Assembly: GCA_903901425.1 (NCBI GenBank)
Contig: CAIURC010000071.1
Coordinates: forward strand, 1-64,000
From: an uncultured Spartobacteria bacterium
GTDB lineage: Bacteria; Verrucomicrobiota; Verrucomicrobiia; Chthoniobacterales; Chthoniobacteraceae
Reading direction: 5' to 3'
DNA: 64,000 nucleotides
The first letter of the stretch is position 1. Every line of letters starts with the position of its first letter. Below the pieces are notes generated by a model, which saw nothing but the letters and a program-made list of their open reading frames with translations, was not told the DNA's origin and did not search any database. This document shows positions 1 to 2,374 of this stretch, one piece after another. A program made the position numbers and the translations under genes.

Positions 1-1840
1 ACCGGGTACTCACCAGCGTGGAGTTGTTGGTGATCGGGTTCGGGTTGGTGCCGTAAAAGACGTTTTTGATGAAGTTCACGTGGCCCGGCTTGCTGGAGCC
101 AAAGTTGGCCTGACCCACGGCTGATTTGAGGTCGATCCGGGTGTTCGGCTGAAAGCTGACCCCGGAAAGATTGATGGTCTGGGCTTCCAGAGCGGTGCGG
201 TTGGCGATCAGAGCGGTCTGCGTCAGACTCAAAACTCCGCCGGTGCGAACGCTAAGGATTCCATTGGCCTGATTGGCCTGCAAGGAAGTGGAGTAAATGA
301 TCGGCGTGCTCGGAGGTGCACCTGGGCTCACCACAAAACCTTGCACCCGGATATCGCCGCCGGCGGTGATGTTTAGGTCGCCCGAAGAAAAGAAGCGCGC
401 TCCGTTGAGGAGCGTGATTTCTGGGGCGAAAATGGAAAGGGTGCCACCCGTGCTCGTTGCCGAGGATTCATAGAAGTTTTCAATTACAGAGCTCGACCCG
501 TCCAGAAGGAGTTCGCCTCCTTTGTCTGGAAGTTTTCCTGAGCGGAGGTACTTGAGGAGACCATCGCCATAAGCTCCAACAAAAACATTGGGGGAGTCGA
601 CGGTGAGGCTGGCGTTTGGTTTGAAAACGATGCTGCCGCCCGCGATGAAACTCAGGTCCGCGTCCGCGGGATGGATTTCCACCTGCCGGTTGATCTGGAT
701 GTCCTTGCTTGAGAGGAAAACAAATGCACCCGAGTTGACCGGAAGAAAAACCAAGGGGCGGTTGCCGAAGGAGCTCTGGGTGGAGGGAGCCGCCGGGTTT
801 CCAAATTCGAACGCGGTATTTTGCGAGGCAAACAGCGTGGCTTCTTCTGGAATGGAGAAACCGCCCGGAAAATCCAGCCTGGCGATTTTGCCCGGATCCA
901 ACGACGCAGCGTTCTGGTCGCCCACAATCGCGCGGAACACCGTGGGTGCGAACTCGGAGGTGCGTCCGGTGAAGAGTCTGCCGGAATTGAGTTGATCGGA
1001 AGTGACCGAGGCGTTGGTGCGGAGCGCGATGGCCAGAGGTGTGTTTTCTGGTCGGTTAAGTTGGAGCAACGCCTCCCGGGAGACCACGTCGTTCTGATAA
1101 GCCTTGTCGGCCTCATCCCCGGCCAGCATCCCGGTATCCTTGAGTTTGCCAGCGGCGATCAGCGCTTCCTGCTTGGCGATGGCGGCTTCGATCTTGGGGG
1201 CGGAGGGCAGGCTCTTCTTGAACCCACTGAGAAGCGCGGAGGTGGCAACCTGCTGGCTCAGTCGGAAAAACACGGGGTTGCTCAAATCCCCGCCCGGAAG
1301 CGCGTACACCATTTGGCCCGCGGTCAGGGTCCGCGTTTTGCCTGCGGCGGTCCGGATCCGGCCTTTGCCCTCAAGGAGCATCACCTTGAAGCCGCCGTTG
1401 TTGGTGGTGCCGACCAGAAGGGTGGTTCCCAACACAGAGGCGGTCACGGCAGCGGTGCGGATGTTGCCTCCGCCCTTGCCCGTGGGGGAGTTAAAAAGGA
1501 TTGAGCCCCGCTGGAGGTTGATCTCGCGTTTTTCCGGTTCAAAGGAGAAGAGGGTGTTCGCACCAACCCGGGTGACCGTCTGGTCGGGAGCAACCATCTC
1601 AGCTCTGGAATCGGCGCCGGTGCGCATGATGTCGGGAACTGCGAACAGATCGTTGACCCGCGCGGCCTTTGCCGACTTGTCCTTGGGCTTGACCACTTGG
1701 ACATCCTTAACCACCTGGGTGATGTTGGAGGAGGTCAGCAGTTCAGCGGCTGCCGCAGAATGGGCCGTTGCAGCCGCTGTGCAGAGCGCGATCACGCTGG
1801 AAACCACCGGACGAATGACGCAGGAGAGAGGACGGATCAT
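1..1840 (-). CDS. FecR-domain / haemagglutinin-like surface protein (3' end beyond window)
   Basis: An uninterrupted minus-strand frame starts at ATG 1840 and is still open at base 1, giving at least 613 residues. Residues 1-32 form a signal peptide with an Ala-rich hydrophobic core. Residues 70-165 match the FecR fold (TRVGANTLFSF, then NIRTAAVTASVLGTT and LTAGQMVYALPGG). From about residue 400 the sequence turns into repetitive beta-strand runs rich in Gly, Asn, Ser and Thr, such as GGTLSIFAPEI and GDLNITAGGDIRV. These resemble the haemagglutination-activity beta-helix of filamentous adhesins. The likely role is an exported or surface-anchored adhesin. FecR domains in PVC adhesins are not necessarily sigma regulators, and no sigma factor lies beside it. 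No Shine-Dalgarno sequence is visible before the ATG. A fragment of a second copy lies upstream at about 2150-2275. Confidence 0.8.
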   Translation of the reverse strand, partial: MIRPLSCVIRPVVSSVIALCTAAATAHSAAAAELLTSSNITQVVKDVQVVKPKDKSAKAARVNDLFAVPDIMRTGADSRAEMVAPDQTVTRVGANTLFSFEPEKREINLQRGSILFNSPTGKGGGNIRTAAVTASVLGTTLLVGTTNNGGFKVMLLEGKGRIRTAAGKTRTLTAGQMVYALPGGDLSNPVFFRLSQQVATSALLSGFKKSLPSAPKIEAAIAKQEALIAAGKLKDTGMLAGDEADKAYQNDVVSREALLQLNRPENTPLAIALRTNASVTSDQLNSGRLFTGRTSEFAPTVFRAIVGDQNAASLDPGKIARLDFPGGFSIPEEATLFASQNTAFEFGNPAAPSTQSSFGNRPLVFLPVNSGAFVFLSSKDIQINRQVEIHPADADLSFIAGGSIVFKPNASLTVDSPNVFVGAYGDGLLKYLRSGKLPDKGGELLLDGSSSVIENFYESSATSTGGTLSIFAPEITLLNGARFFSSGDLNITAGGDIRVQGFVVSPGAPPSTPIIYSTSLQANQANGILSVRTGGVLSLTQTALIANRTALEAQTINLSGVSFQPNTRIDLKSAVGQANFGSSKPGHVNFIKNVFYGTNPNPITNNSTLVSTR

Positions 1841-1973: not shown

Positions 1974-2009
1974 GCCTAGGGGATTTGAATCCCTGCCTCT
2001 CTCAATGCC
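1974..2009 (-). pseudogene. tRNA-Ala remnant (3' half only)
   Basis: These 36 bases closely match the T-arm, variable region and 3' anticodon arm of the intact tRNA-Ala at 2302-2374, in the same orientation. The match stops inside the anticodon arm, so the 5' half (D-arm and 5' acceptor strand) is missing and no functional tRNA can form. The T-loop carries substitutions relative to the intact copy (gatttgaatc against gattcgaacc), consistent with decay. It is either a duplication scar or the far attachment-site copy of a lost integrative element. Confidence 0.7.
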
Positions 2010-2149
2010 TTTAGAAGTTGAAGAACGAAACTCGAGTCAAAAGCGGGTGCGGGCCTGTCAGGTACGGGCGCCCTGCGCTCGCGGGAACGCATTGCGGTGT
2101 CGAGCAAGGAGGCGTCCGTCCGCAGAACCTGGACCAACCGGTCCCTTTA

Positions 2150-2275
2150 AGTCAGAGTGTTCTGGTAGGCGGAATCCGCCTGATCTCCGGCGAGAATTCC
2201 GGTGTTCCTGAGTCTGCCTGCGGCAATCAGTGCCTCCTGTCTGGCAGTCGCCGCCTCAATTTTTGGGGCGGAGGT
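2150..2275 (-). pseudogene. fragment of a second FecR-domain gene
   Basis: Read on the minus strand, this stretch encodes about 41 residues (SAPKIEAATARQEAL to ADSAYQN). They align without gaps to residues 213-253 of the FecR-domain protein at 1-1840, with about 30 identities, mostly K/R and I/M-type changes. Nothing homologous flanks it: tRNA-Ala begins about 25 bases away on one side and unrecognised sequence lies on the other. There is no start codon or FecR core, so it is a relic. The level of divergence implies an old duplication. Confidence 0.75.
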
Positions 2276-2298
2276 CAAAATTTGGAAGTACCAAATTC

Positions 2299-2374
2299 TG
2301 GTGGAGCCTAGGGGATTCGAACCCCTGACCTCCTCAATGCCATTGAGGCGCTCTACCAACTGAGCTAAGACCCC
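2299..2374 (-). tRNA. tRNA-Ala(GGC)
   Basis: A cloverleaf folds on the minus strand: acceptor GGGGTCT pairs with AGGCTCC (two G-U pairs), D-stem GCTC/GAGC, anticodon stem CCTCA/TGAGG with loop ATGGCAT (anticodon GGC), T-stem AGGGG/CCCCT with loop TTCGAAT. The discriminator A is at 2302 and CCA is encoded at 2299-2301. It decodes GCC alanine codons. Confidence 0.95.

Follow-up and report, generated by a model that had tools for sequence, protein, structure and literature searches.

Positions 1974-2374 of the window, by which we mean the whole stretch of 64,000 nucleotides analysed here (contig C71, bases 1-64000, beginning at contig position 1), carry what is best read as a recombination scar, with no evident function of its own. 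On the minus strand the order is gspG, tRNA-Ala(GGC), a FecR remnant (FecR0), a tRNA-Ala 3' half and the gene FecR1, see Table 1. We give about an even chance to the explanation that the scar arose by tandem duplication of a segment reaching from the tRNA 3' half into the 5' part of FecR, after which the start of the copy was lost. The source genome is a draft of 5.1 Mb in 224 contigs and is 96% complete.

Table 1. Features at the left end of the window, in minus-strand order.
Feature	Position	Strand	Evidence
gspG	first in minus-strand order, before tRNA-Ala	-	Pfam T2SSG
Intact tRNA-Ala(GGC)	2299..2374	-	ARAGORN; Rfam RF00005, 67.5 bits over 2302-2374
21-nt joint between tRNA 3' end and start of clear FecR remnant	2278..2298	-	fold; pattern search
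FecR remnant (FecR0), FecR aa 209-276, one TAA	2081..2284	-	tblastn; BLAST nt; FecR profile
Possible continuation of FecR remnant into first ~10 nt of tRNA half	2003..2080	-	collinear FecR2 alignment
tRNA-Ala(GGC) 3' half, nt 31-69	1974..2012	-	BLASTN, shuffles
FecR1 gene, 613 aa, incomplete at contig start	1..1840	-	Pfam FecR E 2e-10

The succession of tRNA-Ala, FecR fragment, tRNA 3' half and FecR gene had been proposed in a first-pass annotation, and ARAGORN/Rfam, tblastn, BLASTN and Pfam confirm it. The FecR gene was there called intact, which is shown for the 613 aa present (with the start taken as 1840); the gene runs off the contig at the contig's first base. Window positions 1-231 overlap the end of another contig, C64 (G000:C64:26109-26339; L039 6110-6340), with 90% identity over 231 nt, the first 76 bases being identical. 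It is probable that FecR1 goes on in C64 and that a second allele or copy of it exists. Beyond the overlap, C64 contains an outer-membrane-like ORF (Pfam BBP2_2 just below the cut-off) and a further FecR gene, FecR2. FecR in the source genome is multi-copy and locally arrayed. A genome_contigs scan with FecR1 as query found no relatives.

An assembly chimera at 1974-2374 was judged unlikely. The longest exact words in common are 12 nt between the tRNA and its half and 10 nt between the remnant and FecR1, and these are too short for an ordinary assembly joint.

The tRNA half is clear. In BLASTN it is identical to tRNA nt 31-69 in 35 of 40 alignment columns, with three substitutions and two one-base indels. 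Its E-value against the 64-kb window is 5.1e-7, and its score of 51 is reached by none of 100 dinucleotide-shuffled windows (maximum 34), so that a chance match can be rejected; the remainder of the window, with the two intact tRNAs masked, tops out at a score of 27. The BLAST match ends at tRNA nt 69, and cheaper gaps let the alignment extend to nt 76. At the other end, the 5' edge of the half falls in the anticodon loop. The half lies downstream of the tRNA in the same orientation, as expected of a 3' fragment in Islander. The intact tRNA-Ala is probably the working copy, and no function is evident for the other parts of the scar.

Between the intact tRNA and the half lie 286 nt, giving a repeat spacing of 332 nt, and this interval is largely FecR-derived. 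The clear FecR match begins about 21 nt past the tRNA and runs in a single frame. As a protein the remnant is 56% identical to FecR1 (tblastn in the source genome, E 5.4e-16), and a home-made FecR profile matches it with E 5.6e-16 for three frames. At the nucleotide level it is 74% identical to FecR1 over 119 nt (2159-2277 against 1091-1209). The joint together with the last tRNA bases (2278-2300) folds as a 10-bp hairpin of about -10 kcal/mol, which may be a weak terminator or chance; a pattern search with up to one mismatch found no second place in the source genome for the 21-nt hairpin, and with this single genomic site a repeated element was rejected.

How far the remnant extends depends on the FecR member used. 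The match to FecR1 stops near aa 276, while FecR2 is collinear with the remnant down to 2003 (aa 301; 34 of 93 residues identical). For the tail alone, 1 of 300 shuffles reaches its score against FecR2 and against L012; in the same shuffle test the tail is not significant against the other four of the six FecR members tested, FecR1 included. The comparison of 2010-2149 with FecR, which the first-pass annotation had proposed as a check, identifies more FecR remnant at least down to 2081 and a collinear continuation that may reach about 2003. If so, FecR coding would overlap the first ~10 nt of the tRNA half and form a joint of short similarity. Against the 118 fetched loci, the tail 2013-2080 has no match among those listed, and the spacer 1841-1973 reaches a best E of only 0.05. 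By eye, no part of this spacer is visible next to the intact tRNA.

The remnant is closest to FecR1. In the 40 genomes of the family, a 44-aa piece of it matches FecR1 best, at 76% over 41 aa, the next match being 55%, where 6 of the 40 genomes yielded any match and the ranking over that piece is from the remnant's side. On this piece the two FecR copies thus stand to each other as a duplication predicts, mutually closest. Since the best match in the family is FecR1, the split between remnant and FecR1 appears to be private to the lineage.

We searched 57 genomes, the source included, the nearest relatives being of the same genus. A FecR1 match (E 1e-4) was found in 0 of 30 tRNA-Ala loci from 30 other genomes, with flanks of mostly 1.5 kb. 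The survey of FecR in relatives comprises those FecR matches that became fetched loci; in these 29 loci, which reach mostly 1.5 kb to each side, no tRNA-Ala was found, and one (L033) has an untyped tRNA-like call. A conserved tRNA-FecR pairing was thus seen neither in the 30 tRNA-Ala loci nor in the 29 FecR loci, and the arrangement looks private to the source. No relative has the unduplicated tRNA-FecR order among the loci compared, and a 3' half like that of the window is absent from the other fetched loci (L001-L114). A partial tRNA match, nt 7-64 at 86%, is present in G022. The gspF-gspG side is conserved in L104, L105 and L106, with a tRNA-Lys close by in L105 and L106. We also considered whether tRNA-Ala lies beside gspG in the three genomes of the same genus; it does not, tRNA-Ala and gspF being on different contigs.

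The relative ages of the parts constrain the explanations. Between FecR0 and FecR1 the differences at codon positions 1, 2 and 3 number 4, 5 and 22 over 119 aligned bases (evenness P 6e-5). With dN 0.13 and dS 2.2 (NG86), and 22 of 40 third positions different, silent sites are near saturation. Because the differences are mostly at third positions, both copies were under selection for most of the time since their split, with decay setting in late. Of the 40 columns of the tRNA half 5 are changed, against about 36% expected if it had been born with the FecR split and had drifted freely (P 0.0008, rising to 0.08 if the lower 95% bound is used for the third-position rate). As the half is less changed than drift predicts, either the FecR copies diverged before the joint formed or the half was kept under constraint for long. 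We take this as moderate evidence for a joint that postdates the FecR split.

From the parts, their order and the kinship of the remnant with FecR1, all of which are observed, we infer a duplication and a deletion, in that order. A segment that begins in the tRNA-Ala anticodon loop and ends near codon 300 of a FecR gene would have been placed again in tandem. Illegitimate recombination would have used a short similarity, the sequence of the joint being readable both as FecR codons K-A-L and as tRNA GGCATTGAG. This one event would leave the tRNA and a FecR gene intact, with a FecR copy truncated at its C-terminus and a tRNA 3' half between them. A subsequent deletion would have reached from the 3' end of the intact tRNA into the copy and taken its first ~208 codons; what was left would also have acquired a stop codon. 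FecR0 and FecR1 differ too much for FecR0 to be a recent copy of FecR1, and the FecR that was duplicated had therefore probably diverged beforehand, as a paralogue or strain allele.

For the duplication speak the kinship of the remnant with FecR1, the lack of integrase matches on C71, the local FecR array, the seemingly private arrangement and a FecR frame that may pass directly into the tRNA half, with no foreign sequence intervening. There are also points against it. The edge of the half in the anticodon loop is a coincidence in this model, FecR0 and FecR1 are near saturation while the tRNA half is well kept, and the continuation of the frame to 2003 comes from two of the six FecR members. 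The lack of the unduplicated order among the relatives' loci compared and of any spacer sequence next to the intact tRNA also count against it. The mismatch in age, the main difficulty, is resolved if the duplicated FecR had already diverged.

The anticodon loop is a standard crossover point of integrases. Accordingly, a collapsed integration site had been the other proposal of the first-pass annotation. Here an element would have entered the anticodon loop of tRNA-Ala(GGC) and restored the tRNA with its own 3' half, leaving the original 3' half on the far side; the element and its integrase would later have been lost save for the FecR fragment. We regard this as fairly unlikely, even if it accounts for the loop breakpoint better than the duplication does. 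The orientation of the fragment and the configuration fit the end of an island, and in two relatives, G007 and G023, the cut in this tRNA comes after nt 39, which is where the half starts (nt 31-39).

The isolated tRNA-Ala pieces in these two genomes are 100% identical to nt 1-39. In G007 the piece is part of a repeat of 252 columns (95%), comprising tRNA nt 1-39 and ~213 nt upstream, and a Pfam integrase lies 319 nt from the intact tRNA. The stretch of ~27.6 kb between the copies also contains type I restriction and modification genes and a resolvase (G007:C12 about 40.7-68.7 kb; L112 4725-6243 and L113 1-13660). In G023 (L114 7049-8622, G023:C142) the gene that follows the 5' half encodes the CTD7 domain of ABC-three-component systems (Pfam E 2.9e-16), and the tRNA-Ala site may there be a defence hot spot. 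A short ORF 5' of the intact tRNA-Ala(GGC) in G004 (L066 860-1171) shares 53% identity over 83 aa with the G007 integrase. It has no Pfam match and is possibly a relic of a G007-like element. The element in G007 duplicates the 5' half, the rarer kind: of the 3919 islands in Islander as described (PMC4383910), 159 have a 5' fragment and 3760 a 3' fragment, and 2083 have an anticodon-centred site. Together, an integrase in the relatives appears to use tRNA-Ala(GGC) and to cut the same loop, but to leave a 5' half.

That the pieces in G007 and G023 are 5' halves therefore counts against an integrase origin of the scar. Further, the 286-nt interval is mostly FecR, homologous to the gene just outside, and would be unlikely cargo. 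The tyrosine integrase family PF00589 has six matches in the source genome and none on C71, and the G007 integrase has no match in the window. GC in 500-base windows shows no step around 1974-2374; with no integrase on the contig, this led us to reject a recent island. Phage and plasmid collections gave no match to 1960-2300 at E 1e-5, a result that is equally expected for most other origins.

The islands in Islander share with this locus a tRNA with a downstream 3' fragment in the same orientation and a breakpoint in the anticodon loop (PMC4383910). However, no integrase was found here, and the short interval consists mostly of the family of the neighbouring gene. In the published description, an Islander entry has an integrase gene between the tRNA and the fragment and a length of 2-200 kb, anything below 2 kb being rejected, and its fragment extends to the end of the tRNA or to a known site of damage shortly before that end (PMC4383910). 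The locus at 1974-2374, with a spacing of 332 nt, has neither this integrase nor this length. Bacterial tandem duplications spanning tRNA genes, like the one proposed here, end inside genes, and three of five isolates in the account of PMC7661048 had no obvious endpoint homology; those duplications are 45-290 kb and fresh, whereas one here would be small, old and decayed. Prokaryotic partial tRNAs described in PMC9897764 are likewise non-functional copies; seven of eight are attributed to genomic elements that integrated, and the eighth to uptake by CRISPR-Cas. They come from archaeal Thermococcaceae, while here no element remains.

The first-pass annotation had put forward a duplicated tRNA-FecR unit in which each copy lost one half. 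The kinship part of this stands, as the remnant is closest to FecR1 (76% against at most 55%), but a loss by each copy is not needed, since one tandem duplication would yield all four parts, with the loss of the remnant's first ~208 codons as the one extra step. We find it quite unlikely that two full units stood in tandem for long, both working, and that each recently lost one part. Such a history would explain the selection on FecR0 after its split from FecR1 (4/5/22) as well as the well-kept tRNA half, and G039, of the same order and outside the family, has two copies of tRNA-Ala(GGC). However, 27 of the 40 family genomes, the source included, have a tRNA-Ala(GGC) of at least 95% identity, each exactly one, and FecR is next to none of the 30 tRNA-Ala loci elsewhere. 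None of the related loci examined has tRNA-Ala beside FecR, and so neither of the arrangements that the first-pass annotation named as decisive, two full tRNA-FecR units or, at this locus, an integrase element between the two tRNA copies, was found among them.

It is improbable that diverged FecR alleles behind tRNA-Ala are swapped between strains with the anticodon loop as joint, in which case the scar would record the exchange of an allele at a hot spot anchored by the tRNA rather than a simple duplication; the second FecR1 tail on C64, 90% identical, would then be another such allele. Finally, a tRNA half that arrived alone, by template switching or insertion of tRNA-derived DNA, before a FecR array with a decaying first member, is improbable: the half looks younger than the FecR split and starts as expected of a tRNA 3' half produced by a cut in the anticodon loop, but FecR0 would then adjoin tRNA-Ala by chance, and such a 3' half is seen only at the window's own locus among L001-L114.

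The scar is real but ordinary, and matters little by itself. Here a tRNA fragment whose edges resemble those of an island lies next to part of the neighbouring gene, without any element, which is a likely trap for island finders. For the bacterial family of the source, the comparison suggests that tRNA-Ala(GGC) serves as an integration site.
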